The position numbers and the translations under genes were made by a program. Below, piece after piece: positions 7,932 to 14,020 of a stretch of DNA of 64,000 nt. The first letter of the stretch is position 1. Each line of letters begins with the position of its first letter. The stretch is from Actinoplanes derwentensis (GTDB lineage: Bacteria; Actinomycetota; Actinomycetes; Mycobacteriales; Micromonosporaceae): positions 8,518,001 to 8,582,000 of the forward strand of contig NZ_LT629758.1 of assembly GCF_900104725.1 (NCBI RefSeq). Reading direction: 5' to 3'. The notes beneath the pieces are model-generated. The model did not search any database. It worked only from the letters and a program-made list of their open reading frames with translations, and was not told where the DNA came from.

Positions 7932-8579
7932 TCAACCGGCGCTCGGCTCCACGGCCGTCACTGTCGGAGAGGGAGCCACCGACGTCGGTACGGCACTCGG
8001 TGTGGGCGTCGCTGACGGACTGGCCACGGGCTCGCTCTCCTCTTTGGAATCACTCCTGGTGTCATCCGGGCCTGTGCTGGGGTCAGCGGTGCCGGTCTCT
8101 TCAGCGCCCTCGGTCTCGACCGCACCCGGCTTCTTCACCGCGAGGCCGGCAGTCGGCTCCTGGGGAACGACCACCGAACGACTGATCGGGCTCGCCGCCC
8201 CCGTCCACCGGTCCCCGGCTGTCGCCCGGACCGTGTAAGCCACCGTGCTCCCGGCTTTCACCGCCGCGTCGGTGCAGTTCAGTACGGTCGCAGACGTCCG
8301 GCAGACTTCGGCCCGGGTCCCCCCGGTGTGCCGGAACACGACGTACCCACGGAGCGCCGCCCCCGAAGGGAACTCGACGGCTTTCCAGCCCACCTCGGGC
8401 ACGTCTCCCCGAAGGACGGCCTTCGGCTTCGTCACCGTGGGCAGGGTGTCCGCGGTCACGGTTGCCAGTCCGGTGGTGCTTCCCACCGACCAGCCGGCCC
8501 ATGCGCTGAGACCGCTGCCGACCGCGATCGCCACCAGCACCCCGGCCGTGACGATCAATGCCGCGCTGCGCCGCTTCAC
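7932..8579 (-). CDS. secreted or anchored protein with FnIII-like domain and Ser/Pro/Thr tail (cluster member 4)
   Basis: A 215-aa protein. A basic start and hydrophobic segment (residues 5-27) end in AWAGW, like the neighbouring cluster members. A domain at about residues 45-135 resembles fibronectin type III (WKAVEFPSGAALRGYVVFRH, then AYTVRATAGDRW, then ISRSVVVP). The last about 75 residues are low complexity, rich in Glu, Ser, Pro and Thr, a likely wall-spanning linker. It lacks the two-cysteine CQ/CK-ATF pattern of its neighbours, although two cysteines flank the FnIII-like core. The GTG start overlaps the previous stop (GTGA), so it is translationally coupled. Confidence 0.75.
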   Translation of the reverse strand: MKRRSAALIVTAGVLVAIAVGSGLSAWAGWSVGSTTGLATVTADTLPTVTKPKAVLRGDVPEVGWKAVEFPSGAALRGYVVFRHTGGTRAEVCRTSATVLNCTDAAVKAGSTVAYTVRATAGDRWTGAASPISRSVVVPQEPTAGLAVKKPGAVETEGAEETGTADPSTGPDDTRSDSKEESEPVASPSATPTPSAVPTSVAPSPTVTAVEPSAG

Positions 8580-9028
8580 CGCTCGACCTTGCTGGCCTTG
8601 GCGGTGAACACCAGGCGGAACGTGGCCTTCTGGCATGCGTCACCGACCGTGTCCGGCATCGTCACCTCGAACTCTCCGGCGGTCGTCCGTTCCCGGGCCG
8701 GCACGACCAGTGGCAGGACGCCCCGGTAGGGGCCGATCACCAGATTGGTCCGGCCCGGCCGGCAGCGGCGACTCGACGTCGATGCCACCCGGGCTTCGAG
8801 GGACCGGATCCGGATCGAGAAGGAGTACGGATTCCGCACGGTGACCCGGGTGCGCTTGACGGCACCCGGATAGAGGCTGTCCATATCGGTCCCGGAGATG
8901 TCGAAGGTGTAGGCGCCCTGGCTGGCGTTCTCCGGTTCTGGATCCTTCGGTTGCTGGCCGGCTGCGGCCCAGAGGCAGACGACGGCGGCCAGTCCGGCGC
9001 CGAGTGGCAGGCGGAGGTCAGTGCGCAT
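8576..9028 (-). CDS. exported two-cysteine beta protein (cluster member 3)
   Basis: A 150-aa protein with an N-terminal signal-like segment (residues 8-24) and a single domain sharing the cluster pattern: SLYPGAVKRTRVTVRNPYSF, a first cysteine in RRCRPG, and a terminal ACQKATFRLVFTAKA. It has no Trp-x-Trp motif after the signal, unlike members 1, 2 and 5. The ATG start lies 11 nt inside the end of the upstream gene, and its stop overlaps the start of the downstream gene, so members 2, 3 and 4 form one coupled unit. Confidence 0.75.
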   Translation of the reverse strand: MRTDLRLPLGAGLAAVVCLWAAAGQQPKDPEPENASQGAYTFDISGTDMDSLYPGAVKRTRVTVRNPYSFSIRIRSLEARVASTSSRRCRPGRTNLVIGPYRGVLPLVVPARERTTAGEFEVTMPDTVGDACQKATFRLVFTAKASKVER

Positions 9029-9509
9029 CGCTGCGACCGATCACCGCGAGGGGAGCCCGGAACGTGGCGTCCTGGCAGGCGGAGTCGGAGTCCTCGGTCA
9101 TCCGGATCGACTCCGGGAGCAGGAACGTGGCCTCGGACCGGGCCGGAACCGCCCAGGAGACGTTGAAGAACTGCTCGGTCAAGGCGACGCCGGACGTGTG
9201 GCAGCCCGCACTGCGGTGCTTCTCGTCGATGGAGATCCGGCCGGATCCGGGGCGCACGGTCGTGACCCGGACCGGGAATCCGTTGTCGTTGGCGACCGTG
9301 ATGAGAAGGCCGGTGATCGCCCCGGGATAGAGGGCCGTGTCGGGCTGTGCGTGACCGGCCGTCCTCAGTTCGACGACTGAACCGGCCGTCGCCGTGGAAT
9401 TGCCGGATCCGGCAAGTCGCCAGGAAGCCCAGGCGATGCTGCCGATGCTCAGGCTGGCGGTGACCAGCCCCGCCGCGATGATCTGGGCTCGCCTCGGAAT
9501 TCCGAGCAC
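9018..9509 (-). CDS. exported SipW/CalY-like two-cysteine protein (cluster member 2)
   Basis: A 163-aa protein: signal/membrane segment at about residues 8-28 ending IAWASW, then a GSGNSTATAG segment and a beta-rich domain with VTVRPGSG, SAGC and ACQDATFRAPLAV. The GTG at 9509 is preferred because AGGAG lies 8 nt upstream. An alternative GTG at 9587 would overlap the stop of member 1 (GTGA) and add 26 residues with no similarity. The pattern of two cysteines about 60 residues apart is shared with members 1, 3 and 5. No catalytic motif is seen. Confidence 0.75.
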   Translation of the reverse strand: MLGIPRRAQIIAAGLVTASLSIGSIAWASWRLAGSGNSTATAGSVVELRTAGHAQPDTALYPGAITGLLITVANDNGFPVRVTTVRPGSGRISIDEKHRSAGCHTSGVALTEQFFNVSWAVPARSEATFLLPESIRMTEDSDSACQDATFRAPLAVIGRSDAH

Positions 9510-9583
9510 GCTGCCGCTCCTGTCTGATTCATGAAGTGGAGTCGGGGCTGGGGCCGGAGGGAGGCAGCCCTCCGGCCCGGGGA

Positions 9584-10129
9584 TCACTCGGCGGCGGTGT
9601 CCGCCGGGTCCTGGACCACCTTCGGCGGGTTGTGAGTCGGCGGCTGGTCCTGCTGGGGCGCCGTCGTGCTCTTGCCGCCGACCGTGGTCTTGAACCCGAA
9701 GTCGGCTTCCTGGCAGGCGTCGTCGGGGTCGGCGATCATGCGGACCGAGTCCTTGTAGTCGAGAACCTTTGTCGACTGCGGCGCTACGTAGAGGTCGGTG
9801 GGAAGCGGAGCGTTGGGAACCGCCTCGACCGTGTTGTTCGGGCAGTTCCTCGTGGTCTTGCTGACGACGGCGAAGCCGGTGAAGTTGATCGAGGTGATCA
9901 GAACGGGGAACTTGTTCTCGTTGGTCACCGTGACCTTCACGTCGCTGCGACTGCCGGGCACGAGCGCGGAGATGCTGGACCCGGAGACCTTCAGCGAGAT
10001 CACCTTGCCTGCCTTGGCGCTGGCCTCGCCGGAACCGCTGATGGTCCAGAACGCCCAGGCCGCGCCCCCGCTGGCCGCCACGACTCCGGCGGTGGCAAGG
10101 GCGGCGACACGCTTCGTGTACTTACGCAT
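9584..10129 (-). CDS. exported SipW/CalY-like two-cysteine protein (cluster member 1)
   Basis: A 181-aa protein, the first of the cluster in transcription order. A basic N-terminus (MRKYTKR) and hydrophobic segment lead to GGAAWAFW, followed by ISGSGEASAKAG, a match to the signal region of SipW-dependent proteins. The mature part has VTVTNENKFPVLITS, a first cysteine in RNCPNN and ACQEADFGF, then a Pro/Gln/Thr-rich C-terminal tail of about 40 residues. The ATG at 10129 has GGAGG 10 nt upstream. No signal peptidase or sortase gene is present in the window. Structural, adhesive or matrix roles are possible but unproven. Confidence 0.78.
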   Translation of the reverse strand: MRKYTKRVAALATAGVVAASGGAAWAFWTISGSGEASAKAGKVISLKVSGSSISALVPGSRSDVKVTVTNENKFPVLITSINFTGFAVVSKTTRNCPNNTVEAVPNAPLPTDLYVAPQSTKVLDYKDSVRMIADPDDACQEADFGFKTTVGGKSTTAPQQDQPPTHNPPKVVQDPADTAAE

Positions 10130-10617
10130 GGGAATGTTCCTCCAGGAACAGGTATACGAGTGCGACACCCGGATGAGCCGGTAGCGACCGAATCGGGGTG
10201 CACGTCGTTAATCGGGTGTGTCCGGGGCCAGCGAGGCCACCCGGCGCTGCGACAAAGATGGCGGAGTCTGTGAACGGCGGCGATCGGCTGACCCGTCGAC
10301 CTGTGGAGGGCGAGACGGTGCGGGAGACGGGCCGTCCCGGCTAATCCGCAGGAGTGATGAGGGCCGATGAGGCGATCATCGATGGCCTCGGCGAAGATCG
10401 ATGAGATGTGGACCGGCCTGGGGTGACGGCGGGTCTGCATCAATCGGGTCGCCGGGCAAGCCCGAGGGAGTCGAAGATCCTGGTGGGGGCGTCGGATTCC
10501 GCTCAAATCAGGGGTGGAACGTGAACTGGCGACACCATTTCCGGGTAACTTGCGGAATTATTTCCGGGTACCGGACCCGAAAGGGGCAGTGCCGTTCCCC
10601 TGAAAGAGGCTTCTGGA
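10130..10617. other. 488-bp intergenic region upstream of the exported-protein cluster
   Basis: No convincing gene is seen. It must hold the promoter of the cluster starting at 10129. It also contains a direct repeat of ATTTCCGGGTA at 10537-10547 and 10560-10570 (23 bp start to start), and a small hairpin, AGAGGC / GCCTCT, overlapping the 3' end of the methyltransferase at 10618. Confidence 0.5.
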
Positions 10618-11367
10618 TTACGCCTCTGTCGGCCGCTCGGCCTGCACAAGGAATCGGTGGGCGCGCACGGTGAATTCGCCCCGGGCCCGGATCACGGCGG
10701 TCAGCCGGGCCAGCTCACGTTCGTACCGCAGCGGGGTGAAGTCTCTGATCTGCCATGGCACTGTCCGCAAATGATGGACGACCGCCGTGATGTCGCGGAA
10801 GGTCAGGAGCGGATGCTCCTCCCGCACGTCGGTGACCCGCAGCCCGGCCGCCTGCAGCGCGCTGACCGCGACCTCGGCGTCCCACCGGCGCGGGTGCGGA
10901 GGTGGGGCGCCGAGCGCGGTGTTGAGTTCGGCCAGGTCGTCGCTGCCGACCTGCTGGGTGAGCAGCGCGCCACCCGGCTTGAGCAGGCGGGCGATGTCAG
11001 CGGCGGGAAGCCGGCCGTGCCGGCTGAGGACGAGGTCGAACTCGTTCTCTTCGGACGGCATCTCGGTCAGCACCGGAACTCCGAAGGGAGCGAGGCGTTC
11101 CCGGGCGGCCGGCGTGTTGCGGGCCCACGTCTCGACCGCGACGGTGTGCGGGGGGAGCGGGGCCAGCTCGGCGAGGAGTTCGCCGCCACCGGTGTCGAGG
11201 TCGAGCACACTGAACGACCGGCTCACCACGACGCGAGCCAGCTCCAGGTACGACCACGACGGCTCGGACGCCACGGCCAGGCCGTCCAGCCAGGCGAATT
11301 CCCACCCGGTCATGGAGGCGCCGGTAGCCGCGGCGTTGAGCTCTTCCCCCTGCCGGTTGCTGCGCAC
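10618..11367 (-). CDS. class I SAM-dependent methyltransferase, substrate unknown
   Basis: A 249-aa protein with a Rossmann-type methyltransferase core: motif I VLDLDTGGGELLAELA near residue 55, an acidic position after the next strand (VAVETWARN), and post-motif segments FDLVLSRHGRL and LLKPGGALLTQQVG. The C-terminal part (FTPLRYERELARL, then FTVRAHRFLVQA) is typical of a common actinobacterial group of uncharacterised methyltransferases. The GTG at 11367 is the farthest upstream start. An ATG 18 codons in (MTGWEFAWLDG) is possible but would cut into the likely first helix. It may be co-transcribed with the MerR fusion gene 94 bp upstream on the same strand. Confidence 0.82.
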   Translation of the reverse strand: MRSNRQGEELNAAATGASMTGWEFAWLDGLAVASEPSWSYLELARVVVSRSFSVLDLDTGGGELLAELAPLPPHTVAVETWARNTPAARERLAPFGVPVLTEMPSEENEFDLVLSRHGRLPAADIARLLKPGGALLTQQVGSDDLAELNTALGAPPPHPRRWDAEVAVSALQAAGLRVTDVREEHPLLTFRDITAVVHHLRTVPWQIRDFTPLRYERELARLTAVIRARGEFTVRAHRFLVQAERPTEA

Positions 11368-11461: not shown

Positions 11462-12487
11462 TCAGTGGCGGACCGGCATGAGTAGCGAGAAATGGGACTC
11501 CACGCCGACCGGCCGGATCATCAGGGGCAGAACGGGCCCGTCGAGTTCCAGCACCAGCTGACCGTCGCCGCCCGCGTCCAGGGCCTGGAGCAGGAACTCC
11601 CGGTTCAGCGCGATGTGCCGCTCGCTGTCGGCGGCCCACTCGTCGGGGCCGACGGCCCGCAACCCGGCGGCCGGATCGAGGCTGAGAACCGACACCGGGA
11701 ACTCCCGCTCGATCGCCGGAGCGGCGGCGATCAACTCCCGCAACTCTTCGGCGCCGACCGTGATCCGCCGCGCCGACGGCCCGGCGCTGATCAGGCGCTG
11801 ATAGTCGGGAAACTCCATGTTGATCGGCTCGTCCTCGACTGTCGTGTCGCCGGCCTGCGCGGTGACCAGGCCGGGGTCCAGATCGATGGTGATCGGCCCG
11901 GACCGGAACGCGCGCAGCCGCTCGGCGAAGGCGAGCGGCAGGAACAGCCGCGCGGCCGTGCCCTCCACGACGGCGGGGGAGGTGGCGACCGCCATCCGGT
12001 AGCGGTCGGTGGCGACGAGCGTGATGACGCCGTCGCCGGTCTCGAAGAGCACTCCGGCCGGAATCGGATCGGCGGCACTCGCCCCTGCGAAGATCACCGC
12101 GGCCAGGGCGGCGGACAGATCGGCGGCGCTCAGCGTGACACGGGTCATCAGTTTCTCCTCCAGATCGAGCAGGGTGTGCAGGCGGAGAAGCTCACGCTTG
12201 GCGTCGGCGAGACCGGACTCCAGGCGGATCAGGTGGGCGTCCAGACGGACCCGTACCGCAACCGGGGTGGGAAGGTCTTTGACCACCGCCGCGATCTCGG
12301 CGACCGGCATCCCCACCCGCCGCAGCCCGGCGATCAGCCGGGCCGCTTTGATCTGCTCGGCGGTGTAGCGGCGGTAACCGGTCGACGGGTCGACGACGGC
12401 TGGGACCAGCACGCCTGCCCCGTCGTAGAACCGCAGCGCACTGACGCTCAGTCCGCTGGCCCGGGCCACCTCGCCGATGCCTCGCAT
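11462..12487 (-). CDS. MerR-type regulator fused to a DnaN (beta-clamp)-like domain
   Basis: A 341-aa two-part protein. Residues 1-70 are a MerR winged helix (IGEVARASGLSVSALRFYD, then GYRRYTAEQ), followed by the usual dimerisation coil to about 112. From about 117 the chain resembles domains 2 and 3 of the replicative sliding clamp: GVLFETGDGVITLVATDRYR, FPDYQRLI, a VSVLSLDP strand, and the terminal FSLLMPVR that closes DnaN proteins. Clamp domain 1 is absent. MerR proteins usually carry a small ligand-binding C-terminus, so a clamp fold in that place is unusual. The ATG at 12487 has GGAG 7 nt upstream. It is transcribed in the same direction as lysE, 47 bp downstream of it. The target promoter is unknown. 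Confidence 0.85.
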   Translation of the reverse strand: MRGIGEVARASGLSVSALRFYDGAGVLVPAVVDPSTGYRRYTAEQIKAARLIAGLRRVGMPVAEIAAVVKDLPTPVAVRVRLDAHLIRLESGLADAKRELLRLHTLLDLEEKLMTRVTLSAADLSAALAAVIFAGASAADPIPAGVLFETGDGVITLVATDRYRMAVATSPAVVEGTAARLFLPLAFAERLRAFRSGPITIDLDPGLVTAQAGDTTVEDEPINMEFPDYQRLISAGPSARRITVGAEELRELIAAAPAIEREFPVSVLSLDPAAGLRAVGPDEWAADSERHIALNREFLLQALDAGGDGQLVLELDGPVLPLMIRPVGVESHFSLLMPVRH

Positions 12488-12534
12488 GTCGTTCTCCACG
12501 TCAACGAATCCTGGTGTCTCGACCTGATCGAGGG

Positions 12535-13134
12535 TCAAGCTTGCACGATCAGAGCCACCCCGAGCACAGTCATCACCACCGCTATCGACGCGTCCAGCAC
12601 CCGCCAGGCGGACGGCCGGGCCAGTAGCGGGGCCAGCCATCGCGCGCCCAGCCCGAGCGAGAAGAACCAGCTCAGGCTTGCGAAAGCCGCGCCCAGACCG
12701 AACGCCCAGCGGTCCTGGTGCTGTTGCGCGACCGAGCCGAGCAGCAGCACCGTGTCGAGATAGACGTGCGGGTTGAGGTACGTCAGCGCGAGGCAGGTGA
12801 GCAGGGTCGCACGCAGTGTGGTGGGAGCCTTGGCGGTGGCTTCCAACGACGACGGCCGCAGTGCTCGGCGGGCCGCCAGGATCGCGTAGCCGAGCAGGAA
12901 CACGGCGCCCGCCCAGCGGATCGCGGTGATCAGGCCGGGGTGCGTGTTGAGGACCGCACCGAACCCGGCGATGCCCGCGGAGATCAGGGCCAGGTCGGAG
13001 AGGGCACAGGTCAACACCACCGGGAGTACGTGTTCCCGGCGCAAGCCTTGACGCAGGACGAACGCGTTCTGGGCACCGATCGCGATGATCAGCACGGCCG
13101 AAGCGACAAATCCGGCTATAGCGGAGGAGAACAT
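12535..13134 (-). CDS. lysE: LysE/ArgO-type basic amino acid exporter
   Basis: A 199-aa membrane protein with about six hydrophobic segments and the LysE-family signature IGAQNAFVLRQGL near residues 19-31, plus TYLNPHVYLDT in the middle. Such proteins export L-lysine and L-arginine when intracellular levels rise. It is divergent from a LysG/ArgP regulator, with 70 bp between, containing a clear inverted repeat. Three diaminopimelate pathway genes lie nearby, which supports a lysine-homeostasis role. The substrate assignment is by family and context. Confidence 0.9.
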   Translation of the reverse strand: MFSSAIAGFVASAVLIIAIGAQNAFVLRQGLRREHVLPVVLTCALSDLALISAGIAGFGAVLNTHPGLITAIRWAGAVFLLGYAILAARRALRPSSLEATAKAPTTLRATLLTCLALTYLNPHVYLDTVLLLGSVAQQHQDRWAFGLGAAFASLSWFFSLGLGARWLAPLLARPSAWRVLDASIAVVMTVLGVALIVQA

Positions 13135-13204: not shown

Positions 13205-14020
13205 GTGGATCAGACCCAGTTGGCGACTTTCCAGGCCGTGATCGAGCAGGGTAGCTTCGAGGCGGCCGCTCGAGTGCTGCACGTCACGCCGTCCGCGGTC
13301 AGTCAGCGGATCAAAGCGCTGGAGCAGACCGTCGGCCAGGTGCTGGTGCGCCGCGCCAAACCGTGCACCGCGACGACGGCGGGCGAGGCACTGGTCCGTT
13401 TCGCCAACCAGGTCGACCTGCTGGAGCGGGAGGTCCTGGGCGCTGACACCACCCGTCTCTCGGTGGTCGTCAACGCCGACTCGCTGGACAGCTGGTTTCT
13501 GCCGGTGCTCGCCCAGGTTCCCGGGGTGTTCTTCGAACTGCACACCGATGATCAGGAACACACCACCGACCTGCTCCGGACCGGCACCGTGATGGCCGCG
13601 GTCACCTCCGAACACGTCCCGGTGCAGGGCTGCCGGGTGGAGAGACTGGGGGTGATGCGCTATCTCGCGGTGGCCGCGCCCGACTTCGACGCCACCGATC
13701 TGCACACCGCGCCGGTGCTCGTCTACAACCGCAAGGACCGGCTGCAACACCGGTTCATGACCGCCCGGTACGACCCGCCGGTCCACTACATCCCGGCGAC
13801 CGCGCCGTTCAACCAGGCGATCCGGTTGGGGCTGGGGTGGGGGATGCTCTACGAGAAGGAGGCGGCAGATGACCTTAGGTCAGGAAAAATCGTGCAAATC
13901 AGACAGGGTCATCTTGACGTCCCGCTCTACTGGCAGTGCTGGCGGATCCAGTCGACAGTGCTGGAGACACTGACGGCCGCCGTTCGCACGGCGGCCGCCC
14001 AGGCATTACGAAACAACTAG
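13205..14020 (+). CDS. lysG: LysR-type regulator, LysG/ArgP family
   Basis: A 271-aa protein with an N-terminal winged helix (residues 1-60; FQAVIEQGSFEAAARVLHVT, then PSAVSQRIKALE) and a periplasmic-binding-like effector domain. The family senses lysine or arginine and activates the exporter gene. It is divergent from lysE across a 70-bp gap with the operator. The GTG start has no clear ribosome site and lies only 7 bp from the operator arm, so a leaderless or very short-leader transcript is likely. Its stop TAG interlocks with the dapD stop through the shared bases CTAG at 14017-14020. Confidence 0.9.
   Translation: MDQTQLATFQAVIEQGSFEAAARVLHVTPSAVSQRIKALEQTVGQVLVRRAKPCTATTAGEALVRFANQVDLLEREVLGADTTRLSVVVNADSLDSWFLPVLAQVPGVFFELHTDDQEHTTDLLRTGTVMAAVTSEHVPVQGCRVERLGVMRYLAVAAPDFDATDLHTAPVLVYNRKDRLQHRFMTARYDPPVHYIPATAPFNQAIRLGLGWGMLYEKEAADDLRSGKIVQIRQGHLDVPLYWQCWRIQSTVLETLTAAVRTAAAQALRNN

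Follow-up and report, generated by a model that had tools for sequence, protein, structure and literature searches.

BmrR, TipA, EcmrR and BrlR, drug sensors of the MerR family, are built from a MerR head, a coiled coil and a large C-terminal domain, and each has an operator dyad within a 19-bp promoter spacer. Griselimycin and mycoplanecin occupy the partner pocket of DnaN, the β sliding clamp. In the available part of PMC10817943, GriR and MypR are described as self-resistance copies of DnaN, encoded by second DnaN genes within the griselimycin and mycoplanecin biosynthetic clusters (mypR is there a DnaN copy, not a regulator), and mycoplanecin is described as contacting DnaN Arg365 and moving Met362. 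The protein described here is encoded in a 64,000-nucleotide stretch of the Actinoplanes derwentensis genome, referred to as the window. Like the four regulators, it has a MerR head, a helix at the coiled-coil position, a large C-terminal domain and a 19-bp-spacer dyad operator; this C-terminal domain is folded like DnaN domains 2 and 3 and has the partner pocket of the clamp.

Architecture, distribution and neighbourhood

The fusion gene (11462..12487, minus strand) encodes 341 residues followed by a stop codon. A GGAG at 12494..12497 on the minus strand, read from the sequence and similar in the upstream regions compared with it, is its likely ribosome-binding site. The head, residues 4-70 (12278..12478, minus strand; Pfam MerR_1, 1.9e-14), is a MerR winged helix-turn-helix whose helices and wing are present in the structure model, and it scores above the Pfam cut-offs of both MerR_1 (53.9 bits, cut-off 21.6) and MerR (45.9 bits, cut-off 28.2). 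A long helix in the secondary structure of the monomer model, residues 75-106 (12170..12265, minus strand), lies where MerR proteins have their dimerisation coiled coil and, by analogy with the family, would have the same role. Residues 112-341 (11465..12154, minus strand) comprise clamp domains 2 and 3 only, instead of the three domains of DnaN, and the score of the fusion against the DnaN equivalog model TIGR00663, 57.1 bits, is below the curated cut-off of 137.65 bits. The original prediction of a MerR head joined to clamp domains 2 and 3, with domain 1 absent, is confirmed by the profile matches and the structure model, in which the C-terminal part agrees with DnaN domains 2 and 3. The genome also has a separate full-length dnaN at its replication origin. 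A third DnaN-like protein of the same genome, outside the window near 7.70 Mb (G000:C1; L086 6185-9124, minus strand), is a 979-residue frame with the clamp toward the N-terminus and a long C-terminal extension; the adjoining short hypothetical genes look mobile-element-like.

The search for similar fusions that had been proposed with the original prediction was successful. One scan of named genomes returned 45 loci, comprising 41 full-length fusions (44-87% identity), all from Micromonosporaceae, and four ordinary DnaN. Among 296 genomes sampled evenly from the class, 26 have a fusion that covers no fewer than 315 of the 345 model positions, and one more has a partial match. Subfamily 2, with 26-30% identity, is found in Streptomyces and relatives. 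This conservation across relatives rules out a frameshift or a chimeric assembly as the origin of the fusion. In one locus (L027; G417:C12:335878-337011) the alignment is interrupted between residues 206 and 208 by an insertion, which lies in one open frame of 386 residues; the gene is not broken. In the tree of the clamp part, 45 fusions form one group against 41 DnaN and that of E. coli (support 0.955), and in the tree of the MerR head they form one group against 15 other MerR heads only (support 0.985). The agreement of the two trees fits a putative single fusion event. Family members are named either 'MerR family transcriptional regulator' or 'DNA polymerase III subunit beta family protein' in the databases, and a search of open PMC text found no paper on a MerR-clamp fusion.

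Upstream of the fusion, on the same strand, is a LysE-type exporter gene (12535..13134, minus strand; Pfam LysE, 1.8e-38), and beyond it a LysR-type regulator (13205..14020, plus strand; Pfam HTH_1, 2.2e-17), which from its position beside lysE is presumably ArgP-like. A methyltransferase-like gene (10618..11367, minus strand; Pfam Methyltransf_23, 1.3e-6) lies downstream. A tblastn match to lysE occurs in 23 of the 41 fusion loci and is absent from those of Micromonospora and Asanoa. Since the flanking genes change in Micromonospora, where a seryl-tRNA synthetase-like gene (named from sequence) is present in 12 of 18 loci, the neighbours, lysE included, are probably neither targets of the fusion nor functionally linked to it. 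Assigning a function by neighbourhood was rejected, the lysE/LysR/methyltransferase synteny being limited to Actinoplanes and close relatives. No griselimycin- or mycoplanecin-type cluster surrounds the gene in the window. Downstream of the locus, three adjacent short proteins of 150, 189 and 194 residues with hydrophobic N-termini (8576-10168, minus strand) are 28-55% identical to the best matches in relatives, while most of the genes beyond lysE exceed 65%.

The clamp pocket and the ring interface

The 18 pocket residues given in the available part of PMC11139829 were compared in 44 subfamily-1 and 11 subfamily-2 fusions and 41 DnaN of the actinobacterial type. In subfamily 1, identity to DnaN is 0.63 in the pocket and 0.21 in the other clamp columns, and in the DnaN-conserved columns only it is 0.79 (12 columns) against 0.34 in the rest; neither difference was reached in any of 20000 permutations. 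In subfamily 2, subsite I is kept (0.61) and subsite II is lost (0.24 against 0.23, p 0.41). Compared with the DnaN of the same genome, the window protein has an identical residue at 11 of 18 pocket sites and at 47 of 227 positions overall. The equivalents of DnaN Arg365 and Met362 are present (R340 and M337), and two pocket positions are changed, with D140 for R152 and P143 for L155. By sequence, the pocket for clamp-interaction peptides is thus retained, which supports the original suggestion that the fusion could bind such peptides.

The unusual ring of MerR-clamp dimers, also suggested originally, finds no support: domain 1 is missing, and the domain-3 interface residues Ile272, Leu273 and Glu304, as named in the available part of PMC11139829, are not kept. 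Position 272 is Leu in 39 of 41 DnaN and a mixture of Val, Ala, Thr, Glu and Pro in the 44 fusions, and Glu304 is found in all 41 DnaN and replaced by a gap in 37 of 44 fusions, the alignment being gappy there. Because domain 1 is absent and these residues are lost, a canonical clamp-ring contact appears unlikely. The positions that, apart from Gln149, we take to face the DNA vary among actinobacterial DnaN themselves, and no conclusion was drawn from them for the fusion. Since the pocket is kept and the domain-3 ring residues are lost, the surviving piece of the clamp appears to be its partner-binding site and not the ring. This combination, as read from the alignments, is new in this report.

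Promoter, operator and predicted targets

In MerR regulators the operator dyad lies inside a promoter spacer of 19-20 bp, according to the available part of PMC9909328, and the fusion family has the same arrangement. The promoter-operator of the window gene (12508..12538, minus strand), recognised by comparison of upstream regions and genome search, is TTGACC-19 bp-CAGGAT with the dyad CTCGATCAGGTCGAG at 12518..12532 (minus strand), and its -35 element and the end of lysE overlap. The 46 subfamily-1 upstream regions all have TTGAC, a 19-bp spacing to a -10-like element and the dyad CTCGACC-N-GGTCGAG between them, and in 44 of them the operator ends 16-20 nt upstream of the start codon used. 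In five subfamily-2 upstream regions a related TTGACCTTC... element was recognised by eye. Since a long-spacer operator of the MerR type precedes its own gene, this classic MerR arrangement points to autoregulation of the fusion.

Further sites were sought with the operator pattern and a reversed-pattern control, with mismatch limits set for each genome group. The window genome has three sites with up to three mismatches (control 1). The two without mismatches are those of the fusion gene and a yunG gene (PF24585, 3.5e-40), while a site with two mismatches lies beside another MerR gene; this operator relative (TTGCACCTCAAGTGGGTTGAG...) overlaps the frame start of a MerR-type regulator of 343 residues (L085 7934-8965, minus strand). 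In 60 relatives, 50 Actinoplanes sites with at most one mismatch were found in 33 genomes (control 0), at 32 fusion genes, eight TPR-like, seven yunG and two MFS genes and one unclear gene. In 101 Streptomyces there are 23 sites with at most two mismatches in 23 genomes (control 0), all at the fusion gene. The 61 Micromonospora have 129 sites with at most one mismatch in 59 genomes (control 0), all classified: 58 at the fusion (two assigned through the 296-genome class scan), 35 between dnaA and dnaN, 18 at MFS exporters of two kinds (6 and 12), 16 at TPR-like genes, one at yunG and one at another MerR gene.

The presence of the site varies with the identity of the genes, and operator sharing is here confounded with kinship. 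In 36 Actinoplanes, all 12 yunG genes of at least 65% identity have it (11 genomes; the fusion was seen in ten and is inferred in G410), and none of three divergent ones (below 50%) does, two of whose genomes lack the fusion and one has it. TPR-like genes have it in 11 of 11 cases at 58% identity or more and in 2 of 19 below 50%. Three of eight Actinoplanes genomes tested for the fusion lack it at E<=1e-25 (G403, G419 and G424), and a search of these three, a small number, gave no operator site at one mismatch or fewer. In YunG (G000:C1:3360849-3361283 and relatives, PF24585), Cys, His and Asp are invariant in 19 aligned members, and the fold weakly resembles papain/transglutaminase-like enzymes. 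The whole word 'MerR' has no match in PMC10421592, and a literature search for YunG with MerR gave nothing relevant. As far as the open PMC text searched goes, the operator and its promoter, the set of predicted targets and the site at oriC have not been described before.

The oriC site is found in 35 of 61 Micromonospora genomes, at the edge of oriC, after dnaA and facing dnaN, the start of which is 689-715 nt downstream. The dnaA stop codon precedes it by 50-377 nt in the 33 of the first 34 genomes where this is measurable, and by 110 nt or less in 26 of these 33; in eight of nine regions read closely, the start of the site is followed after 61-71 nt by the first base of a perfect DnaA box, TTGTCCACA. 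Per column, conservation is 1.50 bits inside the site, 0.27-0.43 in the sequence before it and 0.74-0.77 in the sequence after; because the search pattern partly forces this, it is not counted as proof. All 35 genomes also carry an operator-bearing fusion gene; three of the 61 lack such a gene, and at one mismatch or fewer none of these three has the site at oriC. A search from the dnaN side, covering 50 of 84 genomes of the family, found the site upstream in four of five Micromonospora, one of them shared with the first set, and in none of 45 genomes from other Micromonosporaceae genera, that of the window included. The dnaA-dnaN region of the window genome has no operator site (best score 2.4), and dnaN was rejected as a target there. 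Unexpectedly, the originally proposed link to replication finds support at the Micromonospora origins, but none in the genome for which it was proposed.

Possible function and comparison with known systems

What computation shows is the clamp fold with its kept pocket, an operator in front of the fusion gene and the further genes that have this operator. Our best explanation, which we hold tentatively and at somewhat less than an even chance, is an autoregulated activator of the MerR type whose ligand domain, captured clamp domains 2 and 3, mimics the drug target and senses ligands of the clamp pocket. The idle dimer would hold the 19-bp-spacer promoter shut, as in BmrR or TipA, and a molecule that fits the partner pocket would bind the clamp domain and switch it to activation. 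By raising its own level, the fusion may also serve as a decoy that soaks up the ligand, as TipA and AlbA do with theirs. Its other targets would depend on the genus and include efflux pumps, the small cysteine-enzyme-like YunG and transcription through oriC toward dnaN, which would supply more of the real drug target. The likeliest ligands would be pocket-binding peptide antibiotics of the griselimycin/mycoplanecin type from neighbouring actinomycetes. Since mycobacterial griselimycin resistance depends on an amplified dnaN/ori region (reviewed in PMC5694481, available part), it would make sense to respond with inducible transcription of dnaN, and a fusion that raises itself, exporters and dnaN would answer clamp-pocket drugs. 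Counting against this explanation are the restriction of the Streptomyces operator to the fusion, the window-genome dnaN without a site, the D140 and P143 changes, the loss of subsite II in subfamily 2, the position of the gene outside any griselimycin- or mycoplanecin-type cluster, the description of mypR as a DnaN copy and the three non-fusion site regions, out of 87, in which another MerR head is a possible user of the sites. More doubtful is the proposal that in Micromonospora the occupancy of the captured pocket, by clamp partners or by antibiotics, sets transcription from oriC into dnaN. If true, this would be a new feedback from replication to transcription and the first sensor made by copying the replication target of an antibiotic.

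The kept pocket would also suit a sensor of endogenous partners, in which polymerases, the clamp loader and repair proteins fill the clamp domain and an excess of partners over clamps turns on transcription from oriC to dnaN, a feedback on clamp supply and the origin. The oriC-edge operator of 35 of 61 Micromonospora, its distance to dnaN and the adjacent DnaA box in eight of nine regions favour such a sensor, but this site was seen in one genus only (four of five against 0 of 45 genomes), the sites at MFS exporters and yunG do not match replication control, and we regard such a sensor as rather unlikely. A generic module for binding ligands or proteins, unrelated to clamp partners and with a pocket conserved mostly along with the fold, would account for the altered subsite II of subfamily 2 and for an identity of only about 21% beyond the pocket; it is quite improbable, since the subfamily-1 pocket stands far above the rest even among DnaN-conserved columns.

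The sites away from the fusion may instead belong to other MerR regulators with similar recognition, the fusion controlling only itself. The self sites of Streptomyces, a similar site at another MerR gene (L367), an MFS site with another MerR close by (L147) and the two-mismatch site of the window genome agree with this. However, few non-fusion regions have a MerR head, the three fusion-less Actinoplanes, two of them with a site-less divergent yunG, have no site, and in Micromonospora the oriC site always accompanies an operator-bearing fusion, so that we consider other users of the sites unlikely.

If the sensor of clamp-pocket ligands is right, a sliding clamp has been turned into a gene-regulatory sensor, which would provide a ready reporter for the discovery of clamp-targeting antibiotics and, for actinomycetes, a testable connection of clamp ligands with the supply of dnaN and with transcription at the origin. 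Should the ligand be a different one, a large annotated family still gains an operator, a promoter and predicted targets; the database entries are the same proteins under names only, with function, operator and targets absent. Like BmrR, TipA, EcmrR and BrlR, the fusion is predicted to be autoregulated and has exporters among its predicted targets in some genera, but its ligand domain is a sliding clamp and not a GyrI-like, TipAS-like or other known MerR effector domain. It differs from DnaN in the missing domain 1, the lost interface residues and a TIGR00663 score below the cut-off. Like GriR and MypR, it is clamp-derived and plausibly tied to clamp-targeting antibiotics, whereas it is a putative DNA-binding regulator and here lies outside the biosynthetic clusters in which they are found.
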